Shown piece by piece: positions 1,868 to 38,276 of a stretch of 64,000 nucleotides of DNA. The notes beneath the pieces were generated by a model that was not told where the DNA came from, did no database searches, and saw only the letters and a program-made list of their open reading frames with translations. Position 1 is the stretch's first letter. The number at the start of each line of letters is the position of its first letter. This DNA is from an uncultured Bacteroides sp. (lineage in GTDB: Bacteria > Bacteroidota > Bacteroidia > Bacteroidales > Bacteroidaceae): the NCBI GenBank assembly GCA_947646015.1, contig CANSEY010000013.1, forward strand, positions 41,077-105,076, in the 5' to 3' direction. Position numbers and translations under genes: made by a program.

Positions 1868-2046
1868 CGGCTTTGTAGAGCCGAGATTTTATTTCTTGCC
1901 TGCCCCGCCGTTCCGTGCCGGATTGCGCAAGGCTTTCGGGAAAAATACCGCAAGCGCAGCGAGGATGATTTTTCCGCGAAACCCGAAGGGCCCGGCCTTG
2001 CACAATCCATAAGGCACGGGACGAACTTTGCAGGCTGAAATAAAAC
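1868..2046 (-). promoter_or_regulatory. structured repeat/leader element, copy A
   Basis: This is a nested inverted repeat. The outer stem pairs TTTTATTTC (from 1888) with GAAATAAAA (to 2046), followed by GCCTG/CAGGC. A middle stem pairs about 1910-1933 with 1993-2021. An inner stem pairs GGAAAAAT with ATTTTTCC around a tip containing ATACCGCAAGC and GCGAGGATGAT. A separate small hairpin, CGGCT/AGCCG (1868-1883), lies on the side of the gene starting at 1839. The same architecture recurs at four other places with different arm sequences but kept pairing. On the plus strand the base of the middle stem carries GAACTTTG, a weak match to the TAnnTTTG box. Its function is unknown. Confidence 0.8.
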
Positions 2047-2055
2047 AGCGGTGTC

Positions 2056-3162
2056 CTATTCCTCTTTTTTTCCGTCCTCCTGTGGAATCAGGTGTTTCAA
2101 ATCCGGGTCATTGGCAATTCTTTCCATCTCATCTTCAATTATTTGCAGTACGTCCGCCTTGATACGGGAGTAGTTGCGGTCTATCTGTTGCTGCATGATG
2201 TCGTTACCGTCTGCATCCTTGAACTCGTTGATGACAGGGATTTTTTTGTAGGCTCTGGTCTCCGCCGCCACCTTCTCGTTATCGACGATGATACGGGCAT
2301 GGAAAATCTTCTGCTCGATTTCCTCACCGAAGTTGTCCGCCACGCTGCCCACGAATGTACCCTGCGAGAGGTTGGCAATCTTGGAAGCGGGTATCAGGGA
2401 ATCCAATTGCGTGTTGATGGAGGTGGATGTGTCCTGCCGGTTGATGGATATGGACTGCCTTTGCTGAAGGATTTTGCCGAAACGCTCCGAAAGGTTCTTT
2501 GCCGTTTCGCCTACCACCTGTCCGGAGAAAATATTGCCGACTGTATTTTGGATCACTTTCGCCTCTTTTTCACCGTAGTCACGGGTCAGCTGCGAGAAGT
2601 CCTGGAAGCCGAGACATACCGCCACCTTGTTGCTTCGGGCGGTGGCTATCAGGTTGTCGATGCCGCGGAAATAGATGGTCGGTAGCTCGTCTATAATAAT
2701 GGAACTCTTCAGCTGTCCCTTCTTGTTCACCAACTTCACGATACGGGAATTGTACAGTCCCAAGGCCGCCGAATAGATGTTCTGCCTGTCAGGATTGTTT
2801 CCCACACAGAGGATTTTGGGCTGTTCCGGATTGTTCAGATCAAGTGTAAAATCATCGCCCGTCATCACCCAATACAACTGGGGTGAAATCATCCTCGAAA
2901 GCGGAATTTTTGCGGACGCTATCTGGCCCTGGAGCTGATCTTGCGCTCCAGATTGCCAGGCATCCATGAACGGGGAAAGGTAGTTTTCCAGCGAGGGATA
3001 AGAGGTAAGAATCGTGAAGATATCGGCATACGGCTTGTTAAGAAATTCTATCGCGTGGGGGAAGGTGCAATACTTGCCGTCCTTGTAAATCCGCAAGTAC
3101 CAGATAATCGCCGCGAGCAGGATAATCGGTGACTCCACGAAGAAATCACCCTGTTTCTGTAT
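2056..3162 (-). CDS. mobC: MobC/VirD4-like coupling protein, exon 2 (C-terminal part)
   Basis: This is the downstream part of the type IV coupling protein that brings the relaxase-DNA complex to the mating channel. Read after splicing at 3163, it continues from exon 1 with IQKQGDFFVESP. It holds the ATPase core with a Walker B-like segment SSIIIDELPTI near residue 463 of the joined protein. It ends at a TAG at 2056, giving 368 residues. A longer frame open to 3351 includes intron-encoded codons and should not be used as the protein start. Together with exon 1 the spliced product would be 674 residues, close to what I expect for CTnDOT MobC. Confidence in the family is high; the exact junction is inferred from intron end rules and reading frame. 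Confidence 0.88.
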   Translation of the reverse strand: MQKQGDFFVESPIILLAAIIWYLRIYKDGKYCTFPHAIEFLNKPYADIFTILTSYPSLENYLSPFMDAWQSGAQDQLQGQIASAKIPLSRMISPQLYWVMTGDDFTLDLNNPEQPKILCVGNNPDRQNIYSAALGLYNSRIVKLVNKKGQLKSSIIIDELPTIYFRGIDNLIATARSNKVAVCLGFQDFSQLTRDYGEKEAKVIQNTVGNIFSGQVVGETAKNLSERFGKILQQRQSISINRQDTSTSINTQLDSLIPASKIANLSQGTFVGSVADNFGEEIEQKIFHARIIVDNEKVAAETRAYKKIPVINEFKDADGNDIMQQQIDRNYSRIKADVLQIIEDEMERIANDPDLKHLIPQEDGKKEE

Positions 3163-3203
3163 ATCGGGTAAGTCAAGGGCATTGCTGCCCCCTTCTCCCC
3201 TAA

Positions 3204-3237
3204 GAACCGTACATGAGAGTTTCCCCTCATACGGCTC
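3204..3237 (-). ncRNA. group II intron domain V
   Basis: The 34-nt hairpin reads GAGCCGTATGAGG followed by the GAAA tetraloop and CTCTCATGTACGGTTC on the minus strand. This is the usual size and loop of the catalytic domain V. The stem pairs throughout except for the expected bulge. Confidence 0.9.
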
Positions 3238-3283
3238 AAGCAACTCAATATTTCTATTTGTTGTTAGAAATCGGCTCATACTT

Positions 3284-4936
3284 TCAACATTTTCGTTTAT
3301 TTCGCTTGTAGCAGTTGTTGTGGACAAGTTGCCGTACAATCGAACCATCAACAGATATTTCGTTGACGTTCCATGCTTTTGTACAATCTATTTCCTTGCC
3401 ACATAACGGACAAATCCGGTTCTGCTTGTTCCATAAATATAAGAGAGACTTACGTCCCTTGAGAGATTCCAGCATTTGTTGCTCCTTTCGCTGAAAGAAA
3501 TAATCATCGTATTCCGGGTCGAAGGGGTTTGCCTCACCTTTGATTTGCTTGTACGGGGTATAATGTATATCCGACAACCTTTTAAGAGTCAGGTAGTTCA
3601 CTTTCTTGCTCTTGGTTTCATATTTCCATGCAAACGTCCATTTACGCCCCCGAATTTCATGCCAATATTTGTCTGCAACCCAAGACTTGCGTTTCTTTGG
3701 ATGGCGACGTAAAGCCCATTTCTTCGTGAGATTGTAAATGTGATTGTCACAACCATGAAAAGCATCGGTTGATGCACCATATCGGTAATAGTTGCCCCAA
3801 CCTGTGATTACAGGATTAAGCATTCGTATCAGCGATTCCTGCTTACACATTTTATGTCCTTTAACGATGTCACCGATTTTTGCCCTGAAGCGTTTCTGTG
3901 CATCTTTGGACGGGGATGTGTATAGCCTTTTGCCAAACTTCCTCACATTGAAACCTAAGAAATCAAAACCGTCGTATATGTTCGTAATGGTAGTTTTCTC
4001 TTCGGATAAGGTCAGCCCTCTTTCTTTGAGAAATTCTATCACGATAGGTTTGACTTCGTTTTCCAATAGCTCCTTATCTCGACCTGTGATTATAAAGTCA
4101 TCCGCATAACGAATAAGGTTTACCTTGTAGTGGAATGTCTTATTGTTGCGCCATAATCTTTTGAATCTTTCAGCCAAGAGTGGTTGAAGTCCGTCAAGTG
4201 CTATATTTGCAAGTGTCGGTGATATGATACCTCCTTGTGGTGTACCCTCTTCTGTCGGGAATAGTTTGCCATTGAATACAGCTCCACATTTCAGCCATTT
4301 TCTGAGTATCGTCTTATCCATAGGGATATGATTAAGAAGCCAGTCGTGGCTGATATGGTCGAAGCAGCCTTTAATGTCTCCCTCCAAAATCCATTCGGGG
4401 GAATGCTGGCGGTTTAGAACCGTATCAATCTGACGGATAGCGTCCATTGTCCTGCGTTTCTTGCGAAAACCATAAGAAAAGCGGTCGCCTGTCGTTTCGG
4501 CTATCGGTTCCAATGCCATGAGATATAATGCCTGCATCGCCCTGTCTTTCATTGTCGGTATTCCCAACGGTCGGAGTTTACCGTTCTTTTTCTTGATGTG
4601 AACCCTACGAAGCGGCTGCGGATTGTAACCACGACGTTTCAGTTCACCGATTGCTTTGTACTTGCGCTTGGGAGAATCCCAAAGCTGTTTATCTACTCCA
4701 GACGTTTTCTTCCCTTTGTTGGAAGTAACCCTCTTTACCGCCAATGCCTTGGCGTAAAAAGAGTGGATCAGCATCCACTGCAAGGCTTTCACCTTGTTAT
4801 GTCTGCCTTCCTTTTGAGCCTTTACAATACGCGCTTGTAGCTTTCGGACATGGGCTTCACACTTGGACCAGTCCATGCCGTCCCAAGTTAGATTCCTACT
4901 ATCAGCAGGCGCACACGATGTTTTAGTTTCGTTCAT
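3284..4936 (-). CDS. ltrA: group II intron reverse transcriptase/maturase
   Basis: A 550-residue intron-encoded protein that helps the intron fold and splice and copies it into new DNA sites. The polymerase domain has LRPLGIPTMKDRAMQALYLM near residue 120 and the active-site RYADDFIITG near residue 277. These are followed by the thumb/maturase (X) region with YYRYGAS and W-rich segments. The C-terminus carries an HNH-type endonuclease signature, RICPLCGKEID and a later LVHNNCYKRNKRKC, so DNA target cleavage looks possible. The gene is in the same orientation as its host gene mobC, within intron domain IV. No frameshift or missing catalytic Asp is seen, so it is probably active. Confidence 0.95.
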   Translation of the reverse strand: MNETKTSCAPADSRNLTWDGMDWSKCEAHVRKLQARIVKAQKEGRHNKVKALQWMLIHSFYAKALAVKRVTSNKGKKTSGVDKQLWDSPKRKYKAIGELKRRGYNPQPLRRVHIKKKNGKLRPLGIPTMKDRAMQALYLMALEPIAETTGDRFSYGFRKKRRTMDAIRQIDTVLNRQHSPEWILEGDIKGCFDHISHDWLLNHIPMDKTILRKWLKCGAVFNGKLFPTEEGTPQGGIISPTLANIALDGLQPLLAERFKRLWRNNKTFHYKVNLIRYADDFIITGRDKELLENEVKPIVIEFLKERGLTLSEEKTTITNIYDGFDFLGFNVRKFGKRLYTSPSKDAQKRFRAKIGDIVKGHKMCKQESLIRMLNPVITGWGNYYRYGASTDAFHGCDNHIYNLTKKWALRRHPKKRKSWVADKYWHEIRGRKWTFAWKYETKSKKVNYLTLKRLSDIHYTPYKQIKGEANPFDPEYDDYFFQRKEQQMLESLKGRKSLLYLWNKQNRICPLCGKEIDCTKAWNVNEISVDGSIVRQLVHNNCYKRNKRKC

Positions 4937-5578
4937 TTGCTTTCCTCCTTTTGAAAGTTCTAAAAGTTATCTTGTAAAGAGTTACCATATACGGAAGTCT
5001 GCCCACTTTCGTGTCGGATGATGTCACCAATAACAACCCGTGATGTTGATTCAATCCGTATCCACCCCATTACAGGGTGGCATTCGCTTTTTCCGTTATC
5101 TCATACCTGCACCCCATTCGGCTTGCCTTGCGGTTCGCTTACTCGCATTCTTACGAGAGAGATACAGGCTTGCCCTGTTCCACGTAATTGACAAACGGAT
5201 AGTTTAGGTTCTGCCAAGTCCGCCGGCAGTGCTGTGTCCGTGTAACCCCAACATGGGCAAGGGTTATCCGACTGCTTACCTTTTGGTGAGAGCTAAAGTA
5301 TCTTGCGCTCCTTCAAACCTTACGACGGCTAAAGTCAGTTCACTTACGTTAACCATGCTATCCAGCCTCGCCACTCAACGGTATGATACTAACCGTCCTT
5401 GACATTCCCTCACGGTTCAGTCTTGTCCTTTCGGAAAGTGTACTTTGTCCTATAAGCTTGGCACAACCCATCACTGGAGATGCACCTTATAGTAGGCTAC
5501 CGCTGACGGAACAGCGGGTTAAATCATGCAATTAATATTGCTGTCTAACAATCAATTACGTGACTTTACAGGTCACAC

Positions 5579-6530: not shown

Positions 6531-7784
6531 TCAGGAGATACCCCGTGAGCGGCGTTTCTTTTTCTTCTTGCGTTGCAGCCTGCGTGCGAGAGCCTCTTCC
6601 TGCGGGTCGGGACCATTGGCTTCAAAATCGAAGATTCCGAAAGCCTGCCCGATGGCGTTTTCCATGTCGGCAGAGAAACTGCTTTGCCTGCTGATTTCCG
6701 GTGTGGGAGCATCCAAGTCAGGAATATTGTTCGGCCCATTGAACAATCGTTCAAAGGCATTTGCCGAGAACTCCTTTCCGAGCCGCGAGCCGTTATACAC
6801 CTCCCTGTTCTTGTGGTCGATGAAAGTAGCACCGTAAATGCGGCCTTCATTATTTTCACGGAATACCACGTCTATTCCCTGCCTGTTGAGCAGGCGGATG
6901 AAGTCCTCCCGGTTGCCCCGGCAGCCGTGCATGGCGAGTGCGACACCGTTCCGTATCTTGGGCTGCCATTTCTTGTCCTTGTATTCACGGGCATTGAATC
7001 CGATACGCTTTTCCAGTCCTTCATAGCCAAAGCGTTTTCCGATAAGGGAGGACTTGATGGGCGTACATACCGGCTTGCCTGTATCGTCTGTCATGGTATA
7101 GACAATGCCGTTGTAAGGCGTCCCTTCAAATTCGCCCCTGACCTGCTTCGCCTCGATGTTGAAGCAGGACAGCAACGCGCTGTACTCCCCGAATGACTGA
7201 AAGCGGTAAGTGGAGAACACGCTCTTGAGGATGTTGGAAACTTGTTGCTTTACATCGCCATTCTGATAGTCTGCTTTTTTCAGATATGGTTCCAACATTT
7301 CCCTGCGTTTGTCCTCCACCTGCTTCAGTCCGAACTTGCGTTCCAGTTCCCGGCAGGCTTTCATCGAGCGATTCCACTCGTAGGCGTCATCTATCTTTTC
7401 CCCTTTCTCGTTCACGCATGTGGAAACGATATGGATATGCCTGCGGTCTATGTCCTCGTGGATATACACGATGTAAGGCTGGTCGCCGTAGCCCATGCGT
7501 TGCATATACTCCCTTGCCAAATCCGCAAACTGGCTATCGGTCAGTTTGTCGTCCACAGAAGGATTAAGGGATATATGCAGTATGGGCTTTTCCGTATTCT
7601 TGTTGGCGAGCAGGTAGTTCTCGAATGCCCAAAGCGTGTTCCTCATGACCTGCTCCGGATTACCCGTGACATCGGCAATCATGCGGTTGCCCGAAATGAT
7701 GCGTGCCGTGGAGTCGTCCACTTTCTGCTGGTTGTAGATGACAGCCCCATAGAGCGAGGCGCCCCTGTTGATTTTCGCCACCAT
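6531..7784 (-). CDS. mobB: MobB relaxase (MOBP-type)
   Basis: A 417-residue relaxase that nicks oriT and stays bound to the transferred strand. The N-terminus has MVAKINRGASLYGAVIYN and, near residues 107-121, YIHEDIDRRHIHIVST with the paired His (HIH) that binds the metal. A basic C-terminus (LQRKKKKKRRSRG) would suit DNA binding. The start at 7784 is one base after the mobA stop (TGACATG) and has the purine-rich AGGGAGGAGG just upstream. A further 17 codons are open but would overlap mobA more. mobA, mobB and mobC form one minus-strand operon. Confidence 0.93.
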   Translation of the reverse strand: MVAKINRGASLYGAVIYNQQKVDDSTARIISGNRMIADVTGNPEQVMRNTLWAFENYLLANKNTEKPILHISLNPSVDDKLTDSQFADLAREYMQRMGYGDQPYIVYIHEDIDRRHIHIVSTCVNEKGEKIDDAYEWNRSMKACRELERKFGLKQVEDKRREMLEPYLKKADYQNGDVKQQVSNILKSVFSTYRFQSFGEYSALLSCFNIEAKQVRGEFEGTPYNGIVYTMTDDTGKPVCTPIKSSLIGKRFGYEGLEKRIGFNAREYKDKKWQPKIRNGVALAMHGCRGNREDFIRLLNRQGIDVVFRENNEGRIYGATFIDHKNREVYNGSRLGKEFSANAFERLFNGPNNIPDLDAPTPEISRQSSFSADMENAIGQAFGIFDFEANGPDPQEEALARRLQRKKKKKRRSRGIS

Positions 7785-7785
7785 G

Positions 7786-8244
7786 TCATTCCTCCTCCCT
7801 CTGCTTTTTGATAAGGTAGGTTTCCTCAAACTCATGGGTCAGCATGATGATCCGCTTGCTCAGCACCACCAGATCTATGGTCGTCTTTTCCAGATTGCGG
7901 AGCAGGGCGTATGCCCGTTTCTCCCCGAAATTGTTCTTGATTGCCTTGACCGTCTGGTTGTAGTTGTTGCCGATGGCCTGGAACTGGTGGTAGAAATTGG
8001 TAAGGCGGACATAGTAGTCCATCGTCGCCTTGTCGATTCTGACCACCTTGATTTCCTTTCCGAAAATCATTGCCTTGATGAATTTGGAGCGTTCCCTCAG
8101 TCCCGATTTTTGAAACTGGATATCGAACTTTACGTTCTCTTCCGAGTTTAGCCGCACCACATAACGGTACACGGCAGGGTCGGTTTTCGGTTTCCGCCCT
8201 ACACCTTTTCTTGTTTTTCTGTTCTTGTTTTCTTCCATACGCAT
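7786..8244 (-). CDS. mobA: MobA mobilization accessory protein
   Basis: About 152 residues, starting MRMEENKNRKTRKGVGRK, with a basic N-terminus followed by YRYVVRLNSEENVKF and an alpha-helical remainder. This is the pattern of MobA/MobC-type relaxosome proteins that bind oriT with the relaxase. The frame is open to an ATG at 8274 and another ATG lies at 8238; none has a strong ribosome-binding site, so the exact start is uncertain. It is the first gene of the mob operon, with the probable oriT region directly upstream. Confidence 0.85.
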   Translation of the reverse strand: MRMEENKNRKTRKGVGRKPKTDPAVYRYVVRLNSEENVKFDIQFQKSGLRERSKFIKAMIFGKEIKVVRIDKATMDYYVRLTNFYHQFQAIGNNYNQTVKAIKNNFGEKRAYALLRNLEKTTIDLVVLSKRIIMLTHEFEETYLIKKQREEE

Positions 8245-8274
8245 TGATGTTTTTTGTTTCTGATCTTCCGTCAT

Positions 8275-8520
8275 GGATTCACGACTTTGGAGTGAATCCC
8301 ACCCTGAGCCGGCAGGCGAGCGGCAAGTTGTTTTGAGTGCCCGAATTCATTTCGGGTGCCTCAAAACACAACTTGCTATGTTCGCTTGAACATGAATTTT
8401 CCTTCGTCAAATTGTGTTTTGACCTTCAGCCTCATTCTTCGGCTTCGGGATTACCCCTCCGCGACATCCATTTCGTTCTCGACAGCAAAGTTATGGCGGT
8501 ATATATTACTGTGAAATAGC
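8275..8520. other. probable oriT region with long inverted repeat
   Basis: This non-coding stretch lies between mobA (minus) and the tra genes (plus), the usual position of oriT. It contains a large imperfect inverted repeat at 8324-8375: CAAGTTGT, TTTGAG and CCCGAA pair with TTTCGGG, CTCAAAA and CACAACTTG around a 4-nt loop. A second small hairpin (GCC/GGC around 8431-8447) follows. No nick site can be fixed from sequence alone. Confidence 0.55.
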
Positions 8521-11920: not shown

Positions 11921-12436
11921 CTATTTCATCCTTTCATAAAGATTGATGACCGGTTTTCCGCTTTCCAGTGCCTTGTTCATCGTGTAGAAAGTGCCTCCAT
12001 CCGGAACATGATCCCAGTACGCTATAATCATATCAGCCTTGCGTACCATGTATTCGTCCCTGCGAAGGTAGCAGCCTTTATGGTAGTTCTCGGAAACCAT
12101 CACCACCCGGTTCGTCCTTTCCAGCAGACGGGCATACAGCAGCTGGTCTTCCGCATCGAACCACAAGGGCTGTTTCCTGAAGGGTACTGCCGCTATTAGC
12201 ACGATATCCCCGTATTCTTCCCGGACCTGCAAGACCGCTTCCGCAGCTATCATGTCAAAGCCATTGGCCATTCCGGTATAATATGCCTTATATCCTTTAC
12301 CATACAATTCCGTTACCATTTCCACCACTGCATCCTTGATTTGTGCAAGTGTCAAGAGATTGTTCCCGTTTCCTTGCAGGATACGTTCCTTGCGGTGTCC
12401 CGTGAATGCCACTGCCAGATTGTTTTTTGCTTCCAT
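11921..12436 (-). CDS. SLOG-fold protein (DUF1273/YpsA-like)
   Basis: 171 residues with LAVAFTGHRKERI at the N-terminus, YYTGMANGFDMIAAEAVLQV near residue 53, AAVPFRKQP near residue 84 and ADMIIAYWD near residue 135. These match the Rossmann-like SLOG superfamily (DUF1273/YpsA), which is thought to bind nucleotide-derived ligands. It is transcribed against the surrounding tra genes and lies 27 nt behind structured repeat copy B. The ligand and role in the element are unknown. Some SLOG proteins act in anti-phage systems, but nothing here proves that. Confidence 0.8.
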   Translation of the reverse strand: MEAKNNLAVAFTGHRKERILQGNGNNLLTLAQIKDAVVEMVTELYGKGYKAYYTGMANGFDMIAAEAVLQVREEYGDIVLIAAVPFRKQPLWFDAEDQLLYARLLERTNRVVMVSENYHKGCYLRRDEYMVRKADMIIAYWDHVPDGGTFYTMNKALESGKPVINLYERMK

Positions 12437-12463: not shown

Positions 12464-12652
12464 TACCGTCAATCCGAACGGTATTTTATTTCATGCAGGC
12501 CTTACCGTCCCGGTCCGGGATTGCGCAAGGCTTGCCGTGAAAAAATACCGCAAGCGAAGCGAGGATGATTATTTCACGGCAACCAGCCCGCAGGGCCGCC
12601 TTGCCCGATCCGTCAGGACACGGGACGACCTTTGCCGGAAGAAATGAAATGC
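12464..12652 (-). promoter_or_regulatory. structured repeat/leader element, copy B
   Basis: This has the same nested architecture as copy A. A small hairpin, TACCGT/ACGGTA (12464-12483), lies nearest the gene. The outer stem is ATTTTATTTC with GAAATGAAAT. The middle stem pairs GTCCCGGTCC with GGACACGGGAC, and GCAAGGC with GCCTTGC. The inner stem is CCGTGAAA/TTTCACGG. The tip holds ATACCGCAAGCGAAGC and GCGAGGATGAT. The plus strand carries GACCTTTG at the base. It sits 27 nt in front of the SLOG gene starting at 12436. Confidence 0.8.
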
Positions 12653-12766: not shown

Positions 12767-12846
12767 GGTTTGTAAATCAATAAATTAAACGCTATATATT
12801 CGCTGTCGAAATGATTTTTTGTCTCACTAATTAAATGTTTCGACAC

Positions 12847-13143
12847 ATGAAAAAAAGATTCTTTTCGGCAGTCATGACGCTGCTGGTTTCAGTGGGGGCT
12901 TTCGCCCAGGGTAACGGTATCGGCGGTATCACCGAAGCGACCAATATGGTCACAAGCTATTTTGACCCCGGCACCAAGTTGATTTACGCTATCGGTGCCG
13001 TAGTCGGCCTTATCGGTGGCGTGAAGGTATATTCCAAGTTCTCGTCCGGCGACCCGGACACCTCGAAGACCGCCGCCAGCTGGTTCGGGGCGTGTATTTT
13101 CCTGATTGTCGCGGCCACCATCTTACGCTCATTCTTCCTGTAG
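12847..13143 (+). CDS. traE: TraE (DUF4134)
   Basis: 98 residues from MKKRFFSAVMTLLVSVGAFA. It has a signal-like N-terminus, then GIGGITEATNMVTSYFDPG and two hydrophobic segments (LIYAIGAVVGLIGGVKVY and the C-terminal FGACIFLIVAATILRSFF). This is the TraE/DUF4134 family, resembling the small VirB2 pilin-like subunits of type IV secretion systems. An upstream in-frame ATG at 12835 would add four residues. First gene of the main transfer operon traE-traQ. Confidence 0.88.
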   Translation: MKKRFFSAVMTLLVSVGAFAQGNGIGGITEATNMVTSYFDPGTKLIYAIGAVVGLIGGVKVYSKFSSGDPDTSKTAASWFGACIFLIVAATILRSFFL

Positions 13144-13144
13144 T

Positions 13145-13477
13145 ATGGCGGAATATCCTGTTAACAAGGGGATCGGTCGCAGCCCGGAGTTCAAGGGACT
13201 CAAGAGCCAGTACCTGTTCGTTTTCGCCGGAGGTCTGCTCGCCCTGTTCGTGGTGTTCGTCATCATGTACATGGCAGGCATCGGCCAGTGGGTCTGCATC
13301 GGTTTCGGTGTCATCGCCGCCTCGGTGCTCGTGTGGGCGACCTTCCGCATGAACGCGAAGTACGGCGAATGGGGGCTGATGAAGCTCCAGGCGTTGCGCA
13401 GGCATCCCCGCTACATCATCAACCGGAGAAGATTTCTTCGGTTGTTTTCCCTAACCTCTAAAAAAAGAAGCGTATGA
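13145..13477 (+). CDS. traF: TraF (DUF4133)
   Basis: 110 residues with a soluble N-terminus (MAEYPVNKGIGRSPEFKGLK), two adjacent membrane segments (about residues 25-65) and a basic C-terminal tail. It matches DUF4133/TraF, a VirB3-like inner-membrane component that works next to the VirB4 ATPase. It starts one base after the traE stop and overlaps traG by four bases, so it is tightly coupled to both. Confidence 0.87.
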   Translation: MAEYPVNKGIGRSPEFKGLKSQYLFVFAGGLLALFVVFVIMYMAGIGQWVCIGFGVIAASVLVWATFRMNAKYGEWGLMKLQALRRHPRYIINRRRFLRLFSLTSKKRSV

Positions 13478-15972
13478 GAAATGTAATGAAGACAGCCACG
13501 CTGGAGAGCAAGTTCCCGCTGCTCGCCGTGGAGAACGGCTGCATCATCAGCAAGGATGCGGACATCACCGCGGCCTACAGGGTGGAGCTGCCCGAACTCT
13601 TCACGCTCACGAGGACGGAGTACGAGGCCATCCATTCCACATGGGCGAAAGCGGTCAAGGTGCTGCCGAACTACAGCATCGTGCACAAGCAGGACTTCTT
13701 CGTGGAGGAGAGCTACAAGCCGGACATCTGCAAGGACGACCTCAGTTTCCTGAGCCGCAGTTTCGAGCGGCATTTCAACGAGCGTCCTTACTTGCAGCAC
13801 ACCTGCTACCTGTTCCTGACCAAGACCACGAGGGAGCACAGCCGCACGACCAGCAGTTTCAACGCCCTGACACGGGGATTCATCATCCCCAGGGAGATGC
13901 AGGACAAGGAAACCGTCACCCGTTTTTTGGAAAGCTGCGGGCAGTTCGAGCGTATCGTGAACGACAGCGGCCTGCTCCGCATCACGCGCCTGACGGATGA
14001 GGAGATAACCGGGACGGACACTTCGGCCGGTATCATCGAGAAGTATTTCTCGCTCTCGCAGGAGAACACCGCCTGCTTGCAGGACCTCTCGCTCGGAGCG
14101 GGGGAAATGAAGGTGGGCGACAACTACCTCTGCCTGCATACCCTTTCCGATCCGGAAGACCTGCCGTCGGGCGTGGCGACAGACACACGCTACGAGCGTT
14201 TATCCACCGACCGAAGCGACTGCCGCCTGTCATTTGCCGCTCCGATAGGGATACTGCTCACCTGCAACCATGTGGTGAACCAGTACCTCTTCATCGACGA
14301 TTCGGCGGAGAACCTGCGGAAGTTCGAGCAGACGGCGAGGAACATGCACTCGCTTTCCCGCTACAGCCGTTCCAACCAGATAAACCGGGAATGGATCGAG
14401 GAGTATCTGAACGAGGCGCACAGCAAGGGACTGACCTCCATCCGTGCCCACTGCAATGTGATGGCTTGGAGTGACGACCGCGAAAAGCTCAAGCGTATTA
14501 AGAATGATGTCGGCAGTCAGTTGGCATTGATGGAGGCGAAGCCACGACACAATACGGTGGATGTGCCGACATTGTTCTGGGCGGCGATACCCGGCAATGC
14601 AGGTGATTTTCCTGCGGAGGAAAGTTTCTACACCTTCATCGAGCAGGCCTTGTGTCTGTTCATCGGTGAGACCTCTTACAAGGATTCGCTTTCCCCGTTC
14701 GGCATCCGCATGGTTGACAGGCTGACCGGAAAGCCCGTCCATCTGGATATTTCCGATTTGCCCATGAAGAACGGCACGATAACGAACCGGAATAAATTTA
14801 TCCTCGGACCGTCCGGCTCAGGCAAGTCTTTCTTTACCAACCACATGGTGCGCCAGTATTACGAGCAGGGAACGCATGTGCTATTGGTGGATACGGGAAA
14901 CTCCTATCAGGGGCTTTGCAACCTTATCCATGCCCGGACACACGGCGAGGACGGGATTTATTTCACTTACGAGGAAAACGATCCGATTGCCTTCAATCCA
15001 TTCTATGTGGAGGACGGTGTTTTTGACATCGAGAAGAAGGAGTCCATCAAGACGCTCATCCTCACCTTGTGGAAGCGTGACGACGAGCCGCCGACAAGGG
15101 CTGAGGAGGTGGCGCTATCCAACGCGGTGAACCTCTTTTTAGAGAATATCCGCAGGGACAACAGCATCAGGCCCTCCTTCAACACCTTCTACGAGTTCAT
15201 CCGTGACGAGTACCAGGATATTCTGAGGGAGAAGCGTACCCGTGAGAAGGATTTTGACGTGTGGGGTTTCCTGAATGTGCTTGAACCGTATTACCGTGGT
15301 GGGGAATATGACTTCCTTCTCAACTCGGACAAACAGCTTGACTTGTTGAATAAACGATTCATTGTCTTCGAGTTGGACAACATCAAGGACAACAAGGTAC
15401 TGTTCCCGATTGTCACCATCATCATCATGGAAACCTTCATCAACAAGATGAGGAAATTGAAAGGCATCCGCAAGATGATATTGTTGGAGGAAGCTTGGAA
15501 GGCCATCAGCAAGGAGGGCATGGCGGAGTATTTACGCTATCTCTTCAAGACGGTCCGCAAGTTTTTCGGCGAGGCGGTGGTGGTCACTCAGGAGGTCGAG
15601 GACATCATCTCGTCTTCCATTGTCAAGGGGACCATCATCAACAATTCCGACTGCAAGATTCTTCTCGACCAGAGAAAATATGTCAACAAGTTCGATGAGA
15701 TACAGGCGTTGCTCGGCCTGACCGACAAGGAGCGTGCGCAGATACTCTCCATCAACATGGCGAACAACCCTTCCCGAAAATATAAGGAAGTCTGGGTCGG
15801 TCTGGGCGGTTCGCAGTCGGCGGTCTATGCCACCGAGGTGTCGCTTGAGGAGTATTATTGTTACACGACAGAGGAGACCGAAAAGCTTGAACTTATGCGG
15901 CTTACGGAGAAACTCGGCGGCAATATCGAGCTTGCCATCAAGCAGCTGGCGGAAAGCAAGCGTGAAAAGTAA
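13474..15972 (+). CDS. traG: TraG, VirB4-like secretion ATPase
   Basis: 832 residues, the main energy-supplying ATPase of the mating apparatus. The N-terminal half is the Bacteroidetes-specific TraG N domain. The ATPase half has Walker A GPSGSGKSFFTN near residue 445, a Walker B-like KMILLEEAWKAISKEG near residue 667 and VVVTQEVEDIISS near residue 708. Length fits the VirB4 family. The 13.5-15.9 kb DNA is strikingly GC-rich, which creates long antisense open frames that are not genes. Confidence 0.95.
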   Translation: MRNVMKTATLESKFPLLAVENGCIISKDADITAAYRVELPELFTLTRTEYEAIHSTWAKAVKVLPNYSIVHKQDFFVEESYKPDICKDDLSFLSRSFERHFNERPYLQHTCYLFLTKTTREHSRTTSSFNALTRGFIIPREMQDKETVTRFLESCGQFERIVNDSGLLRITRLTDEEITGTDTSAGIIEKYFSLSQENTACLQDLSLGAGEMKVGDNYLCLHTLSDPEDLPSGVATDTRYERLSTDRSDCRLSFAAPIGILLTCNHVVNQYLFIDDSAENLRKFEQTARNMHSLSRYSRSNQINREWIEEYLNEAHSKGLTSIRAHCNVMAWSDDREKLKRIKNDVGSQLALMEAKPRHNTVDVPTLFWAAIPGNAGDFPAEESFYTFIEQALCLFIGETSYKDSLSPFGIRMVDRLTGKPVHLDISDLPMKNGTITNRNKFILGPSGSGKSFFTNHMVRQYYEQGTHVLLVDTGNSYQGLCNLIHARTHGEDGIYFTYEENDPIAFNPFYVEDGVFDIEKKESIKTLILTLWKRDDEPPTRAEEVALSNAVNLFLENIRRDNSIRPSFNTFYEFIRDEYQDILREKRTREKDFDVWGFLNVLEPYYRGGEYDFLLNSDKQLDLLNKRFIVFELDNIKDNKVLFPIVTIIIMETFINKMRKLKGIRKMILLEEAWKAISKEGMAEYLRYLFKTVRKFFGEAVVVTQEVEDIISSSIVKGTIINNSDCKILLDQRKYVNKFDEIQALLGLTDKERAQILSINMANNPSRKYKEVWVGLGGSQSAVYATEVSLEEYYCYTTEETEKLELMRLTEKLGGNIELAIKQLAESKREK

Positions 15973-16004
15973 TCCATTTTATCAACCGTTAAACACCAAT
16001 AATC

Positions 16005-16625: not shown

Positions 16626-16675
16626 TTTCCCATCGAAACAACAATCAGATTATTCATCATTAAAAAAGTAGATTT

Positions 16676-17305: not shown

Positions 17306-17317
17306 TCCTGAATCCGA

Positions 17318-18328: not shown

Positions 18329-18349
18329 TAACATTAAAACGACATTGGA

Positions 18350-22153: not shown

Positions 22154-22159
22154 CTGCCA

Positions 22160-25587: not shown

Positions 25588-25779
25588 CCGGCTCCGGGAG
25601 CCGGTATTTTTATTTCTCGCCTGCCTGACTGTCCCGTGTCCGTACGCGCAAGGTTTGGCGAAAGAAAATACCGCAGCCTTCAGGCGAGGATGATTTTCTT
25701 TCAGCCAACCCCGCAGGGGCCCGGCCTTGCGGCGTACGCAGGACACGGGACTACCTTTGCAGGGTGGGAAATAAAATAT
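25588..25779 (-). promoter_or_regulatory. structured repeat/leader element, copy C
   Basis: A small hairpin, CCGGCT/AGCCGG (25588-25604), lies near the gene. The outer stem contains TATTTC/GAAATA. The middle stem pairs GTCCCGTGTCC with GGACACGGGAC and GCAAGG with CCTTGC, with CGTACG facing CGTACG. The inner stem is GAAAGAAAAT/ATTTTCTTTC. The tip is GCC-TTCA-GGC between ATACCGCA and GAGGATGAT. The plus-strand TACCTTTGC at its base fits the -7 box. It lies 29 nt before the DUF4120-like gene and about 57 bp after the stop of the upstream gene. Confidence 0.8.
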
Positions 25780-32478: not shown

Positions 32479-32976
32479 TTAATCGTAATTGTCATCGAAC
32501 ACCTCGAAACGGGGGGTGACCGTGTCGAAGTAATTGTTTGATATGCCCGGATAATACAGGAAGCCATCATCGTCTCCGTCCGGGCAGGTGTCGTCGCCGG
32601 TGGACGTGGCATTGCCGTACAGTTCCAGGTAGTGCGCTACCAGCAGGTGCGGGTCTTCCGAGCTGATGTCGTGATGACATTTGTCGCACCAGTCGAAGAA
32701 CCACTCCTTGTCGGGTTCATCCAGCTGTTCCATCGCCTCCCTGATTTCAAAGAAGTTGGGGCACAGCCACTGCCTGTTTATCAGCGAGCCGGGAATCTCT
32801 TCCCACCGCGTGTACCTGTACTCCGGGTTCTCCTCTTCCGGGAACATGTCGGAGCAGGTGCAAAGGAATTCCCCCATGTCGCCGAAGTCGGACATCTGCA
32901 ACCAGTTGTCCTTCTCCTGCCTTATGTCTATGAGATGCTGAGTGGTCACTGCCACTTCCGCTTGATTCAAGTCCAT
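32479..32976 (-). CDS. acidic hypothetical protein behind leader copy D
   Basis: 165 residues, very acidic throughout, with scattered Cys and Trp (EFLCTCSDMFPEEENPEYRY, EWFFDWCDKCHHDISSEDPH). The C-terminus DDTCPDGDDDGFLYYPG is almost all acidic. Acidic small proteins on mobile elements are sometimes DNA mimics against restriction, but I see no ArdA-type motif, so this is only a suggestion. It starts 25 nt after structured repeat copy D. Confidence 0.68.
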   Translation of the reverse strand: MDLNQAEVAVTTQHLIDIRQEKDNWLQMSDFGDMGEFLCTCSDMFPEEENPEYRYTRWEEIPGSLINRQWLCPNFFEIREAMEQLDEPDKEWFFDWCDKCHHDISSEDPHLLVAHYLELYGNATSTGDDTCPDGDDDGFLYYPGISNNYFDTVTPRFEVFDDNYD

Positions 32977-33001: not shown

Positions 33002-33177
33002 CCGGAACCGGGGATTCCATTCCACAGGCCCCAAAAGGTCCGTATCCCGGCTGTGCAGGGTTTTCCGGGGAAATACCGCAGCCTCCGGCGAGGATGATTT
33101 CTCCGGAAACCGCTCGCGGCATGACCTTGCACAGCCGATGGGGATACGGGCTACCTTTGCCTGTGGAATGGATTCTG
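33002..33177 (-). promoter_or_regulatory. structured repeat/leader element, copy D
   Basis: A small hairpin, CCGG/CCGG (33002-33011), lies near the gene. The outer stem pairs CCATTCCACAGGC with GCCTGTGGAATGG. The middle stem pairs CCGTATCC with GGATACGG and GGCTGTGCA with TGCACAGCC. The inner stem includes TTCCGG/CCGGAA. The tip is GCC-TCC-GGC between ATACCGCA and GAGGATGAT. Also AAAGGT faces ACCTTT. It lies between the methylase-helicase gene (ends 33205) and the gene starting at 32976. Confidence 0.8.
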
Positions 33178-33204: not shown

Positions 33205-36200
33205 CTAACTCATTATGCGCTGGCTTCCCCAGCTGATGTGGATTTTTCCCTCGCTGTCACGTTCCCGTACCAGCAGACTGTCGATGACGGACATCGTGAC
33301 ATCGAACTCCTCGAAGATTTCCGACTGCTCCTTCACCTCGCCGGTCTTGATGAACTCGTTGAGCCTTTCCTTTGTCAGTACCAATGCCATCAGGTTCTGT
33401 TCCACGGAATCCTTGTAGGTCACGAAATGGACGTTCTTCAGTTCCTTGGAGTCCAGGCGGATGAAGCGGAAGTAGAACTGCTCCATCTTGGGGATGTTCC
33501 ATTGCAGGGATTCAAGGATGACATCGTTGCAGGAGGGGATATTTACCGAGCTGCTCAGGCTCTGCTGCGTGCATACCAGTATGCCGTTGATGGTGGAATC
33601 GAATTCCGAAACGATGCCCTGCCGCTTCTTGAACGCGACGTCACCCTTGACGGTAAATACCGGTCGGTCCGGGAAACGCTCGCGGATGAGATTTTCGTAC
33701 AGTTCAAACGCCGCTATGGAGGTGCAGCCGACGGCAACCTTGCCGGGAATCTTCCGTATCAGTTTCTCGATGAAGACTGTCTTGTTCGGGTAGCCGTTCC
33801 CGAAATAGCCCTCTATCAGGTGGGGCACGGAGCAGGCCTTGATAAGAAGTTTGATCTGGCGCATGAGACGGAGCCCGGCATCCTTTTTCGTGTCGCCCGT
33901 ACTGTTGTAGTAAAGCTCGCAGATACGACAGAACTCCTCGATGATAACACGGTACACCTCGTGTTCCCCCTCGGATGGTGCGACCGTGTGCATCCTTACC
34001 TCGTATTTTTCTCCGGCAAAGTCCTTGAACTTGCGCGTGATGACGGTCTTGCCGATAAGCTCGGACAGTTCGTCCTTGTTATATACGTCCTGGTTCTGCT
34101 TCTCGATGCCGAACACGGTCGCCTTGCCGGGACAGTGGCAGGCCCGGAACAGTACGTGCCCCCTGAAGGCGGGGAACGGTTCTCCGTAGTGCGGGTTTGG
34201 ATCTTCCTCTATCTCCCTGTCCCTGTTCTCGTGGTATATCCGGCTGCACCAGCAAATCATGTTTATGGAGTTATTGTACAACAGTTCAAACTGGCTGTAC
34301 AGCTCCGCGATGTTGTTGCGCGTGGTCGTTCCCGTGTCGAGGATCTTGTATTTGAGCCTGCGGAAGATGCCCAGGATATGCCTTGTGCGTTGTGACGAGG
34401 GGTTGGTAATCTCGTCGGATTCATCGAATACCAGGCAGAGTTTCCTTGAGGTGCGCCTGATGAACTTTGTCAGCCCTCTTTTCAGCTTGCCGAGCATGGA
34501 GGTGGAAAGCACGAGGAATACCCCTTCCGGAACCGTTTCGAGGTCGGCGTTGTTCCTGACCATGCGGAATCGCTCCCTGTTTATCGTCAGGAACGGCACC
34601 CATGTCATGTTGGTGGCGATGGCGGGGGCCAGTATGATGACATTGCGCACCTTACGGTATTTGAGCAGGTACTTGGCACGGTGATAGACAGCCGCCGTCT
34701 TGCCGGAGCCTTGCTGCCAGTTCAGCAGGGCAAAGCGTTTCTGCAATACGAGGTTCAGGTCGTGTTTCTGAAGCTCCGTGAACTCACATACATCGCCTTC
34801 CTTGTTGATGAAGGTCGTGCGGTCAAGATATTCGGCCAGTTGTGTGTCCGGTTTCATGTCTGAGAATGGACGGTTCTGTATTTCATATTGCCTGCGCTTT
34901 TTCCGTATCAGTTTCTTCGCTGCACGGACCTGCATCATGTTCTTTTCCGTCAGGATTTCCGGTACGGGAAGCTCCGCCCGTCCCAATACGAGGTCGTTGA
35001 TGCCCGCTGCCTTGTGCTGTACCTTATCCAGCAGGCGTGGGGCGTACTGTTTCAGCCTGAAGCCGTAGGAGGTCTTCACCAATGCCACTTCCTTGCGCGG
35101 GACGATGTTTTGTGAGGTGATGTACCTGCGGATGATACCGAGTACTTTTTTCGTGGTCAGCTTCTTCCTTTCCCATTCCTTCTCCTGCTCTTTGGTGGCG
35201 TTCTCCGGTGGTTTCTGGTTGCGGAACTTCGTCACCAACGCTTCCGCCTTGTCGATATGCCTGTTCAGTGCCGCGTGTGCTTTCAGTTCGTACATGTACT
35301 TGGCGAGCTTGTACTCGAACAGTTCCAGTTCCTCCCTGTCAATCCGGTTGGTCTCGCGCATAAGGTCGAGGCGCAGTTTGTGCTTCATCGCCCTTGCCTC
35401 CATGATACGCCCTTTCAACTCGTCCATGGAGATGAACTCTTCCGCATTGTAGGGCTGCATTTCGATATGGCGGGACTCGCGCAGGAACACCATTACTTTC
35501 GTGCGGAAGTTGTGTACCCCTGTGGAGGCAAAGGCGTTCGGGTCTAATTGCACCTGGCCTACAAAGGAAAAGTCGCTGTTGATATTCGCGACACGGCTCT
35601 TCTCCCAGAACTCGCTTTGCATGAACGATAAGGGAACGATGACCATCAGGATGCCTGCCGGATTGAGCACATCGTATGCTTTGTTCATGTAATACTCCTG
35701 GGAGAGCTTGTAGTCGAACTTCAGATTGAAGGGAGGGTTGCCGATGATGACGTCGAAGCGTTGTTCCGGGTGGTATTGCCGGATGTCGCATTTCTCGATA
35801 CGGGCTTCCGGGTAGAGGTATCTGGCGACAGTCACTGCTTTGCCGTCAATGTCAAACCCGTAGGCGTTGTGCAGGTTGGGAAGGTGGTTGAAGAAGTTGC
35901 CCATGCCGCAGCACATGTCGAGGATCATTTCCGAATAGACGGGAGAAAGCATCTCCACCATATCCCTGCATACTTCATGCGGAGTGAAGAACTGTCCCAT
36001 CTCGAACTCTTTTTTGGCATTGGCATACTCGTTATAGTTGGCGAAGTCGGATTGCTTTAGGTTGTGCAGCCCTCCGATGCCGGTATAGCAGTTGTAGATG
36101 CTCTCTGCCGGAATAAGGTCTTTACCTGAGTCTATGGCGAAAAATATCTTTTCGTTGACTTCGGCCCGCTTGTCCTGCGGTATCTGTTGGGGGATGATGG

Positions 36201-36207
36201 CGTACAT
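33205..36207 (-). CDS. N6-adenine methylase-helicase fusion protein
   Basis: 1000 residues from MYAIIPQQIPQDKRAEVNEK. The N-terminal part is an adenine methyltransferase with FEMGQFFTPHEVC near residue 68, ILDMCCGMGNFFN (SAM-binding motif I) near residue 96 and DVIIGNPPFN (catalytic NPPF) near residue 145. The C-terminal half is a helicase-like ATPase with LLNWQQGSGKTAAVYH near residue 495 and the Walker B-type CLVFDESDEI near residue 590. Such fusions are common on Bacteroides conjugative elements and may protect or remodel incoming DNA; that role is inferred. The ATG at 36207 is preferred to one at 36249 that overlaps a terminator hairpin. Confidence 0.88.
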   Translation of the reverse strand: MYAIIPQQIPQDKRAEVNEKIFFAIDSGKDLIPAESIYNCYTGIGGLHNLKQSDFANYNEYANAKKEFEMGQFFTPHEVCRDMVEMLSPVYSEMILDMCCGMGNFFNHLPNLHNAYGFDIDGKAVTVARYLYPEARIEKCDIRQYHPEQRFDVIIGNPPFNLKFDYKLSQEYYMNKAYDVLNPAGILMVIVPLSFMQSEFWEKSRVANINSDFSFVGQVQLDPNAFASTGVHNFRTKVMVFLRESRHIEMQPYNAEEFISMDELKGRIMEARAMKHKLRLDLMRETNRIDREELELFEYKLAKYMYELKAHAALNRHIDKAEALVTKFRNQKPPENATKEQEKEWERKKLTTKKVLGIIRRYITSQNIVPRKEVALVKTSYGFRLKQYAPRLLDKVQHKAAGINDLVLGRAELPVPEILTEKNMMQVRAAKKLIRKKRRQYEIQNRPFSDMKPDTQLAEYLDRTTFINKEGDVCEFTELQKHDLNLVLQKRFALLNWQQGSGKTAAVYHRAKYLLKYRKVRNVIILAPAIATNMTWVPFLTINRERFRMVRNNADLETVPEGVFLVLSTSMLGKLKRGLTKFIRRTSRKLCLVFDESDEITNPSSQRTRHILGIFRRLKYKILDTGTTTRNNIAELYSQFELLYNNSINMICWCSRIYHENRDREIEEDPNPHYGEPFPAFRGHVLFRACHCPGKATVFGIEKQNQDVYNKDELSELIGKTVITRKFKDFAGEKYEVRMHTVAPSEGEHEVYRVIIEEFCRICELYYNSTGDTKKDAGLRLMRQIKLLIKACSVPHLIEGYFGNGYPNKTVFIEKLIRKIPGKVAVGCTSIAAFELYENLIRERFPDRPVFTVKGDVAFKKRQGIVSEFDSTINGILVCTQQSLSSSVNIPSCNDVILESLQWNIPKMEQFYFRFIRLDSKELKNVHFVTYKDSVEQNLMALVLTKERLNEFIKTGEVKEQSEIFEEFDVTMSVIDSLLVRERDSEGKIHISWGSQRIMS

Positions 36208-36237
36208 GTCTTTGGATTGTTTACGTTTGAAAATGAA

Positions 36238-36268
36238 GACACCCCGCAAGGATGCCTTACGGGGTGTC
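36238..36268 (-). terminator. terminator upstream of the methylase-helicase gene
   Basis: A stem of GACACCCCG with CGGGGTGTC and a 13-nt loop is followed on the minus strand by TTCATTTTC. It sits between the gene ending at 36289 and the ATG at 36207, so it could end the upstream transcript or act as an attenuator of the methylase-helicase gene. Confidence 0.75.
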
Positions 36269-36288
36269 TGGATTGGTCTCTCATGCCG

Positions 36289-37230
36289 TTATTGTTCTCT
36301 TAGTGTGATTTCATCCAGCCGGAGCCGCTTGAAACAGCTTTCGGCGGCTGCACTGTCCTTGAACCTGACGTCTATGCGCCCGTTCTTGTAGAATCTGATT
36401 TGCTCGGCATTGGTCGTGGTAAGGTCGTACCAGTCGTTAATGGATACATTATTATCATCGAAACAGATAATCATCTTTGAGTTGCCGTTCAATATGTCAT
36501 CCGCACCGAATGCAATTCCAGCACAAAGGGTTTCCAACTCATTGGTATAGCTATATGACACTCGACAACGATTACTGTATTGCATGGAAAAATCATCAAA
36601 ACGGATGATTTCAGGGAAGATAATCTTGTCCTTCTTTAGTTCAGTCTTTACCTTAGTCCAGTATGCCGGTTTGACGACTTTCTGAACACGGCTGAGTAGT
36701 TCCTCTTCCGCCGTTTCGCGGAAGCTCTTGCCTCCCAAGTGTTCTATGACGGCATCCACGTATGTTTCATAGACCGGGCGGAATCCCATGCGGAGCGTTT
36801 TCCCGTCTATGTTCGGCACCGGCACTTGAACATTGTAGGTGTTGTTGAAATAGGAGATAATGCGACCCGCGAAGTTGGAGTTGGCATTACGGTTCTTGTC
36901 CACCAAGTCATTGATAAGGTCGAACGGCTTGAACTCGTTGTGCGAATAGTCATCCCTGCCGTTATGGTAGAAATAGAAATCGCGCATGGATACCTTGCCG
37001 TTGTCTTCGTAATGGAACTTGCGTTCCGCCTGGTATTGTTCAGCATCTTCCTTGAAGACGGCGTACCAGCGGTCTATCTGGTCGAGCGTCCTGTAGAGCA
37101 GGTCCTGCTGTGTCTGGCAATAGAGGCGGTCTTGCTCCGTGATTTTGTCCTCGTTTCTCACTTGTACGCTCAGGATACCGGAAAGCAGGTCGGGAGCGTT
37201 GCCGACCTTAGTTGCTGTTGTCGTTTGCAT
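36289..37230 (-). CDS. hypothetical protein, possibly DUF4942
   Basis: 313 residues. It contains LLYRTLDQIDRWYAVFKEDA near residue 48, FDLINDLVDKNRNANSNFAG near residue 103 and MIICFDDNNVSINDWYDLTT near residue 252, then FYKNGRIDVRFKD. The size and its place beside a methylase gene are reminiscent of DUF4942 proteins, but I cannot confirm this. It is 19 bp after the gene starting at 38062 and ends before a terminator. Confidence 0.68.
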   Translation of the reverse strand: MQTTTATKVGNAPDLLSGILSVQVRNEDKITEQDRLYCQTQQDLLYRTLDQIDRWYAVFKEDAEQYQAERKFHYEDNGKVSMRDFYFYHNGRDDYSHNEFKPFDLINDLVDKNRNANSNFAGRIISYFNNTYNVQVPVPNIDGKTLRMGFRPVYETYVDAVIEHLGGKSFRETAEEELLSRVQKVVKPAYWTKVKTELKKDKIIFPEIIRFDDFSMQYSNRCRVSYSYTNELETLCAGIAFGADDILNGNSKMIICFDDNNVSINDWYDLTTTNAEQIRFYKNGRIDVRFKDSAAAESCFKRLRLDEITLREQ

Positions 37231-37249
37231 ATTTATTGGATTTTAGATG

Positions 37250-38062
37250 TTAGAAATTCTTGATACGATACAGGTAGGTGATGTGCTGTTCCATGTCCTT
37301 GACAATCTTGACTTGTTCGGGATGGAAATTCAGTCTTCGCTCTACGGCAGGGGATTCTATCTTTTCCCACTCGGGAAGCGGCAGGAATATATATTCGCGA
37401 CGGAAACACCACAATACTATTTGTGTAGGCCAATTTCCCTTGAAGATCGTTCCTTCATAGTCTTCCACGAACTGTTGCAGTTCCGCCTCGTTACGGAAAG
37501 CAATGTCAAAACCTTGGTAAAGATTGCCGGCTTCCGATTCCTCCTTTTTATTGAAATAAAATTTTCGGTAGGTTTCGGTCGTGAAATTTCCGTACTTGGG
37601 ATTGGGTTCTGAATAGAACCACATCGGTACTTTTGCGTAAAATGCCACCGCTCCGTTTGCACAAGCTCTACAATGTCCCCAGTCCTTGAATGAACCATCC
37701 GTCCATTTCAGGAATTTCAATTCTTTCGGATTCACGGCATGAAACGCACCTCCACTGACGCTCAACCGGATATTTCCGTTATCATTCCAGACGAAAGGTA
37801 TGCTTGGCTGTTCGCATATAGAAAGATGCCCTTTATTTGTGTGGTGCAGGTTCTCTATAAGGGCGTTGCCGTAATAGTCCCCGTCTTCGGTCACATAAAT
37901 CAGTCTGTCTCCGATTTGCGGTGTGATTTCGGAACGTGTCTGTTCGATGAGTTCCACATAACTGTTAGCCATATCGACATCTTTCTGTGTCAGCCCGTGT
38001 TCATGGTCGAATGAAACATTCAGTTCTCTGAGTGTTTCCACACTGTACTTGTTTTTAGCCAT
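37250..38062 (-). CDS. hypothetical protein (possibly DUF4121) behind leader copy E
   Basis: 270 residues from MAKNKYSVETLRELNVSFDH. It contains ITPQIGDRLIYVTEDGDYYG, CRACANGAVAFYAKVPMWFY and VLWCFRREYIFLPLPEWEKI. An upstream ATG at 38071 would add three residues. The 38062 start is preferred because it leaves 28 nt to repeat copy E, the spacing at the other copies. I tentatively relate it to DUF4121. It is the first gene of the accessory block on this strand and the last gene of the element before its end. Confidence 0.7.
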   Translation of the reverse strand: MAKNKYSVETLRELNVSFDHEHGLTQKDVDMANSYVELIEQTRSEITPQIGDRLIYVTEDGDYYGNALIENLHHTNKGHLSICEQPSIPFVWNDNGNIRLSVSGGAFHAVNPKELKFLKWTDGSFKDWGHCRACANGAVAFYAKVPMWFYSEPNPKYGNFTTETYRKFYFNKKEESEAGNLYQGFDIAFRNEAELQQFVEDYEGTIFKGNWPTQIVLWCFRREYIFLPLPEWEKIESPAVERRLNFHPEQVKIVKDMEQHITYLYRIKNF

Positions 38063-38090
38063 CTGTAACATAACATTTGATTTTTGTTAG

Positions 38091-38276
38091 TCCGGCTTTT
38101 CGGGGCCGGAGTTCCCGTAACTACAGGCTTAAAAGGTCGTGTTCCGTACATGCAAGGTTTCCGGGAAAAATACCGCAAGCCCTTCAGGGCGCGGAAGATT
38201 TTTCCACGGAACCCGAAGGGCTTGACCTTGCTTGTACGAAAAGAACACGAATTACCTTTGCCTGTGAGTTACGGGG
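38091..38276 (-). promoter_or_regulatory. structured repeat/leader element, copy E
   Basis: A small hairpin, TCCGGC/GCCGGA (38091-38110), lies near the gene. The outer stem pairs CCCGTAACT with AGTTACGGG and CAGGC with GCCTG. The middle stem pairs CGTGTTC with GAACACG and GTACATGCAAGG with CCTTGCTTGTAC. The inner stem is GGAAAAAT/ATTTTTCC. The tip is GCCC-TTCA-GGGC between ATACCGCAA and GCGGAAGAT. The plus-strand base holds TACCTTTGC. Last copy, at the element's edge. Confidence 0.8.

Follow-up and report, generated by a model that had tools for sequence, protein, structure and literature searches.

This analysis concerns 64,000 nucleotides (nt) of DNA from an uncultured Bacteroides sp. (assembly GCA_947646015.1, contig CANSEY010000013.1, positions 41,077 to 105,076), hereafter the window, which is part of an integrative and conjugative element (ICE) of the CTnDOT/CTn341 type. 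Five copies of a long hairpin (A to E) lie on the + strand of this element, each just upstream of a gene encoded on the minus strand, and carry on the + strand the boxes of a sigma-ABfr promoter. The sequences suggest that each copy is probably a single-stranded DNA (ssDNA) promoter, which would switch on establishment genes in the recipient, in analogy with the Frpo sequences of the F plasmid. The evidence also leans, with less assurance, towards a wider proposal: conjugative elements throughout the class Bacteroidia would possess an independently evolved ssDNA promoter family of their own, based on sigma-ABfr and placed on the transferred strand; the genes behind these promoters would make up a complete entry programme, silent in the donor and expressed only from the incoming single strand, while the tra genes, on the other strand, stay off until the DNA is duplex.

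Five hairpins kept by covariation

A preliminary description of the window had reported five copies of one structured element, and searches of the window with a tip pattern and with a covariance model bear out the five positions, all on the + strand. These predicted ssDNA promoters are found at 1868–2046 (A, tip at 1943–1969), 12464–12652 (B, tip at 12543–12569), 25588–25779 (C, tip at 25666–25694), 33002–33177 (D, tip at 33071–33098) and 38091–38276 (E, tip at 38168–38199). In the window, the tip pattern matches at 1943, 12543, 25666, 33071 and 38168, each time on the + strand, and nowhere else; it has no match in 100 shuffles of the window. The covariance model recovers the same five copies with 108–128 bits, these copies being part of its 39 training sequences.

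Folding shows that the five copies share the architecture that had been described for them: a small hairpin is followed by a long, multi-part hairpin with three stems (outer, middle and CCTTGC/GCAAGG), a side hairpin and a tip that carries AAATACCGCA and GCG(A/C)GGA(T/A)GAT. The strong covariation noticed between the arms is also confirmed. In 39 divergent copies, the covariation score is 0.410, compared to 0.174 ± 0.009 after shuffling (a value of 0.410 is reached in none of 500 shuffles) and to 0.055–0.162 when the pairing partners are slid, although the structure that was scored came from that same 39-copy alignment. Standard pairs occupy 90.3% of the alignment cells, compared to 76.9% after shuffling. 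In silico, the element is a noncoding, stable stem-loop that is kept by covariation.

Promoter boxes on the + strand

In Bacteroidetes, sigma-ABfr uses promoters with TAnnTTTG as the −7 box and TTTG as the −33 box (PMC7366714). On the + strand of the hairpins, the arm 3′ of the tip contains CCTTGC, later TAnnTTTG, and then C. In the window, the −33 and −7 boxes are located at 1997–2000 (CTTG) and 2023–2030 (GAACTTTG) in A, 12600–12603 and 12627–12634 (GACCTTTG) in B, 25726–25729 and 25752–25759 (TACCTTTG) in C, 33126–33129 and 33152–33159 (TACCTTTG) in D, and 38227–38230 and 38253–38260 (TACCTTTG) in E, where the −33 box was read from the sequence (a script had placed it at 38221). An internal loop contains the −7 box of A, B and C; in C, only the last G of the box is paired.

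The same arrangement is found in other genomes, whose contigs were scanned for the tip pattern; the counts that follow are of the matches listed and are thus lower bounds. At least 136 tip matches were obtained, of which one is at a contig edge and 22 were removed by a filter on fold and CAAG (including L123 and L125, which are true copies), leaving 113 matches, or 107 unique candidates. Among the 51 representatives (copies below 90% identity), the columns of the −7 box contain T in 36, A in 51, two variable letters, then T in 51, T in 51, T in 48 and G in 49. The step from CCTTGC to TAnnTTTG is 22–23 nt in 39/50 representatives, and the spacing on the template arm is 18–19 nt in 36/50.

Before any selection on the boxes, 98 of the 107 unique candidates have at least five of the six fixed −7 letters when scored at the best-fitting position within the permitted range. 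This unfiltered count is given because the −33/−7 filter favours a promoter. Seven candidates fail that filter (−33 box, at least four of six letters) and two more (L043 and L106) were set aside as chance matches, which leaves a filtered set that also numbers 98. In this set, 71 copies have all six fixed letters and 25 have five; the same search at the mirror position on the minus strand gives all six in 0/98 and five in 3/98, the −7 scores being best-place scores in both cases. The mirror arm also has CCTTGC, because of the pairing. The information content is 1.54 bits per column on the −7 arm, 0.47 on the facing arm, and 0.44 and 0.45 on the variable spacer arms. Information that is high on the −7 arm alone fits a sigma factor reading the non-template strand. 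As far as letters go, the folded strand shows the boxes of the main sigma factor of the host, aimed at the gene.

Orientation and the transferred strand

The hairpins have a nearly fixed orientation with respect to the transfer genes. In 32 genomes with copies (G025 and G139 being left out, and a copy being a tip match), 84 copies have a TraG ATPase gene no more than 60 kb away, and 83 of them share its strand; 78 have a relaxase gene within the same distance, and 77 of them are on the strand opposite to it. The orientation is unanimous in 29/30 element units for TraG and in 26/27 for the relaxase, these units being related by descent and so not independent. Among the matches listed, 38/122 copies have no TraG gene within 60 kb and 44/122 no relaxase gene, but a missing neighbour means little. 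The preliminary description had offered, as one of two possibilities, an ssDNA element active in conjugation, and this idea gains support from the + strand promoter and from the orientation counts. That description did not see the promoter, which supplies the mechanism.

The strand that would be transferred can be tentatively deduced from the origin of transfer (oriT). A candidate oriT is an inverted repeat at 8325–8377 on the + strand, between the mob genes and the ParA and tra genes. In an alignment of the region upstream of mobA, ACACAACTTGCT (8366–8377, + strand, right arm of the repeat) is invariant in 21/21 elements; the flank on the right of the repeat is conserved as well, and the left arm is altered in L143. 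The conserved right arm and flank, together with the altered left arm, would place the nick site (nic) on the + strand, probably near 8375/8376, between ACACAACTTG and CT, so that the tra side would enter first and the relaxase gene last. This putative entry order agrees with the statement in PMC11541004 that the relaxase typically sits in the lagging region. On both grounds, oriT conservation and the usual lagging position of the relaxase, the + strand is presumably the transferred one. Copy B would be the first hairpin after nic, at 4.2 kb, with C, D and E at 17–30 kb and A on the mob side.

The mob and tra genes of the element lie on the two sides of the oriT repeat. A MobB-like relaxase (PF03432) is encoded at 6531–7835 and a MobA/MobC_2-like relaxosome protein at 7786–8274, both on the minus strand. 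The ParA gene starts at 8911 and the tra genes (DUF4134, TraG ATPase, TraJ, TraM, DUF4138, primase-like) extend from 12835 to 23041, all on the + strand. The gene of the coupling protein (mobC/TraG, minus strand, 2056 to about 6500) is split by a group II intron, which is also on the minus strand (3163–5518) and contains its own reverse transcriptase (3284–4936). The ICE seems to end at about 38300–38540. The next + strand gene past this end (38538) is of the glutaminase A type, and its first domain match starts from position 83 of the profile, as if the gene had been cut.

Relatives in other genomes

In the genome from which the window comes, the tip pattern finds nine copies and the covariance model ten. 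Two are found by the model only (C8:6138 and C13:25775, the latter 15.3 kb to the left of the window); conversely, C8:17902 matches the pattern but is absent from the ten listed model matches. With the tip pattern alone, copies are found in 4/393 genomes of the order, own genome included. The covariance model R1 has matches in 19/295 genomes of the class, 14 of which lie outside the order of the window.

The −7 box was scored in 28 of the model matches (after removal of two duplicates, L180), 20 of them outside the order. All six fixed −7 letters are present in 15 of them and five in 5, compared to 0 and 6, respectively, on the mirror arm. The model was trained on copies that bear the box, so its presence in model matches is not independent evidence; the spread of the two free positions is still informative, and in the 15 full boxes they read CC (6), TT (3), AC (3), TC, CA and CT. 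In a second set of genomes, 20 further ones, all ten copies within 30 kb of an above-cut-off TraG match are on its strand, and two of these ten are outside the order. Two other copies are opposite a TraG match that is below the family cut-off.

Copies repeatedly occur in pairs with a separation of about 570 nt (G400:C1:2067431 and 2068004; G394:C97:94858 and 95431; L152:21467 and 22045); the L152 pair flanks a DUF4120 gene. Weaker relatives of the hairpin are present at G292:C1:597474, 906829 and 2926495 (L184 and L185), about 2.6 kb from relaxase genes. No TraG match is near them among the matches listed, and they perhaps belong to mobilizable elements; their −7 box is degenerate in the one that was read. 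Three copies (L010, L023 and L058) are in contigs of metagenome-assembled genomes labelled Acetatifactor and Clostridium, which may reflect a binning mix-up or transfer across phyla. A circular 38-kb record from Phocaeicola (L150, OY726014.1) has two copies and cfxA.

Genes behind the hairpins

All 81 copies that have at least 700 nt of flank are followed by a minus-strand open reading frame (ORF) of at least 60 amino acids (aa), which starts 70–189 nt from the tip, mostly 92–113 nt; in a loose control, the other side of the hairpin, this is the case for 46/85. Similarly, a RefSeq plasmid record contains three copies, and each has a listed minus-strand coding sequence (CDS) that starts 55–61 nt from the model match, one of the hairpins being overlapped by another listed CDS.

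In the window, the genes behind the five copies are indeed all on the minus strand. The distance of 25–29 nt that had been given between hairpin and start codon holds for A to D; the start codon behind E is only 19 nt from the edge of the copy. The statement that the five first genes are unrelated stands in the sense that they have no Pfam family in common, those of A and D matching no Pfam family at all.

Behind A is an 87-aa orphan gene (1576–1839, start codon at 1839), followed by minus-strand ORFs at 1310–1564 (DUF6926) and 811–1299. The gene behind B (11921–12436) belongs to the YpsA/SLOG family (PF06908, 1.2e-16). Copy C precedes a DUF4120 gene (25268–25558) and a second gene (24275–25201) whose match to DUF932 is below Pfam's cut-off. 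A DUF932 gene also follows the region of F taken as that of Frpo1 (L183:18439–19260), and BLAST finds no similarity between the two proteins. The 165-aa orphan gene behind D (32479–32976) heads a run of minus-strand ORFs that extends to 25837. Copy E is followed by a DUF4121 gene (37250–38071), by a gene of no family (36289–37230) and by a third minus-strand gene (33205–36249) encoding an N6 DNA methylase-helicase protein of 1014 aa. The latter is a candidate anti-restriction gene, which would fit a role in the protection of the incoming DNA from restriction. The structure model of the DUF4121 protein is confident (pLDDT 90) and no convincing relative of it was found among solved structures.

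The 81 first genes fall into 36 crude clusters. The scan of 28 of them gave DUF4121 three times, DUF6926 twice, and DUF4120, DUF4326 and YpsA once each. Copies ahead of related genes have a mean similarity of 0.81, compared to 0.63 for the others, and of the 378 copy pairs with a similarity of 75% or more, 96 precede unrelated genes. Overall, hairpins and their genes descend together.

Proposed mechanism

During conjugation, the + strand would enter the recipient in single-stranded form and fold into the long hairpin. The duplex stem thus formed would join the two boxes of the promoter: CCTTGC, which pairs with GCAAGG, as the −33 box and, in the arm that follows the tip on its 3′ side, TAnnTTTG as the −7 box, with the usual box spacing of 18–19 nt on the template arm. 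The host RNA polymerase with sigma-ABfr could then bind the stem, read toward the base of the hairpin and continue onto the single-stranded 5′ flank, where it would meet the template of the minus-strand gene. The putative establishment genes (methylase-helicase, DUF4120, DUF4121, SLOG protein and others) would in this way be expressed before the second strand is made. After synthesis of the second strand, the duplex promoter would point rightward, away from the gene, and the gene would go silent.

Alternative explanations

The other possibility raised in the preliminary description, a structured mRNA leader (riboregulator) of the minus-strand genes, now appears quite unlikely. A hairpin does lie upstream of each gene, the minus strand is able to fold since Watson-Crick helices are equal on both strands, and single folds of the minus strand contain no fewer G-T pairs. 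However, the consensus fold is poorer on that strand: RNAalifold gives −21.3 and 32 pairs for the + strand, against −10.5 and 16 pairs for the minus strand, with RNA parameters, and −6.7 against −1.9 with DNA parameters. Single folds are stabler on the + strand in 25/39 copies (RNA, p 0.026) or 29/39 (DNA, p 0.0005). These results lend moderate support to the + strand as the folding strand. On the minus strand, the 320 nt upstream of each of the five genes of the window lack TAnnTTTG, and Rfam has no relevant match for the hairpins (the two above-threshold matches in the window are parts of the group II intron). A leader would not explain the promoter box on the opposite strand either, nor an orientation that is fixed relative to tra. 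That the hairpins are single-strand initiation sites, where RNA polymerase or the primase of the ICE primes the complementary strand and the genes behind are incidental, is a minor possibility. It would account for the recurrence of the copies round the element and for the primase-like gene among the tra genes, and both transcription and primer synthesis figure in the title of the first Frpo paper; but priming alone requires neither the ORF just behind every copy that has enough flank (81/81) nor copy sequences that track the gene behind them (0.81 versus 0.63).

The boxes on the + strand, and the position of B ahead of the tra genes at 12835, could also denote an ordinary double-stranded promoter that reads rightward, with the inverted repeat as operator. 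This is very unlikely, as the right sides of A, C and D are 3′ ends of minus-strand ORFs, that of E is the apparent end of the ICE, and the partner arm is kept by compensatory changes. A transposable hairpin, like a miniature inverted-repeat transposable element, or a recombination site would explain the many copies of shared architecture and the 96/378 pairs of similar copies ahead of unrelated genes. It is hardly credible given the single orientation per element, the narrow range of distances to the gene and the average co-descent with this gene.

Several observations weigh against the proposal that the hairpins are ssDNA promoters read from the transferred strand. The predicted folds of D and E, and those of 32/107 unique copies, have a paired −7 box; the first T of the box is missing in 15/51 representatives, and likewise in A and B, where it is replaced by G. 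A simple sigma-70 scan of the Frpo regions of F finds no clear promoter on either strand, so the geometry is without positive control in this analysis. The counts of G-T pairs in minimum-energy folds, 104 on the + strand versus 124 on the minus strand with RNA parameters and 55 versus 49 with DNA parameters, are not clearly higher on the + strand, and when pairs are chosen without bias the outcome is noisy, with no strand bias at strict thresholds. One copy (G416:C23:12895) and its nearest tra ATPase gene are on different strands, and in the second set of genomes 4/18 copies within 30 kb of a relaxase gene share its strand, the other 14 being opposite. An invariant block, CGACTTTGGAG, is also present to the left of the oriT repeat in 21/21 elements, so conservation is not limited to one side of oriT. 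C, D and E would be 17–30 kb behind nic, and A, next to mob, would enter last, unlike in the leading region of F. Finally, the tip (ATACCGCA/GAGGATGAT) is strikingly constant in all copies and has no role in the promoter model.

Part of the invariance of the tip results from its use as the search key. In remoter relatives it is roughly AAAATAC..C and GGAGATTTT, and it can also be read there as about ATACTACC/GGTGGAGAT. The tip is perhaps a protein site or an upstream contact of RNA polymerase. As for the block CGACTTTGGAG, it sits in a small hairpin on the left of the oriT repeat (window 8200–8400).

Comparison with known systems

The mob, oriT and tra layout of the window is like that of the CTnDOT/CTn341-type elements of Bacteroidales. 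The oriT, the nick site and traA-Q of CTn341-like elements have been described in PMC5729914, whose accessible part contains no description of such hairpins. A literature search, which left out bioRxiv and most subscription journals, gave among the papers listed no report of ssDNA promoters in Bacteroidetes, and the word start "Bacteroid" is absent from the main text of PMC11541004 and PMC12826799.

The closest analogues are the Frpo/ssi sequences of F, ColIb-P9 and other enterobacterial plasmids, as presented in PMC9849209 and PMC11541004. Frpo1 and Frpo2 of F are single-strand stem-loops with promoter boxes, which are needed for early, transient expression (PMC9849209), and Frpo-like promoters have been found in many conjugative elements (PMC11541004). 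In these systems, a noncoding hairpin stands before genes templated by the transferred strand, a position that the hairpins of the window would share if the + strand is the transferred one. Other common points are promoter boxes that are formed by the (here predicted) fold, the presence of more than one copy per element, and DNA methylases and further establishment functions, putative in the window, among the genes that follow. No sequence relation was found, however: the covariance model has a best E value of 3.7 against 22 kb of F, in the leading region that holds Frpo1 and Frpo2.

Unlike Frpo, which has sigma-70 boxes, the present hairpins have sigma-ABfr boxes and a constant tip loop; they are found in integrative elements of Bacteroidetes and are spread over the element beyond the leading region. 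As a candidate ssDNA promoter system, they would extend the cases described for enterobacterial plasmids to a different phylum and sigma factor, and to integrative elements by which genes pass between gut bacteria. The hairpins would flag, by sequence alone, uncharacterised genes (DUF4120, DUF4121 and others) that an incoming element needs first, and may therefore be a route to new anti-defence genes. If the proposal is true, the use of folded single strands as promoters arose more than once, in the lineage of Frpo and in that of the hairpins described here.

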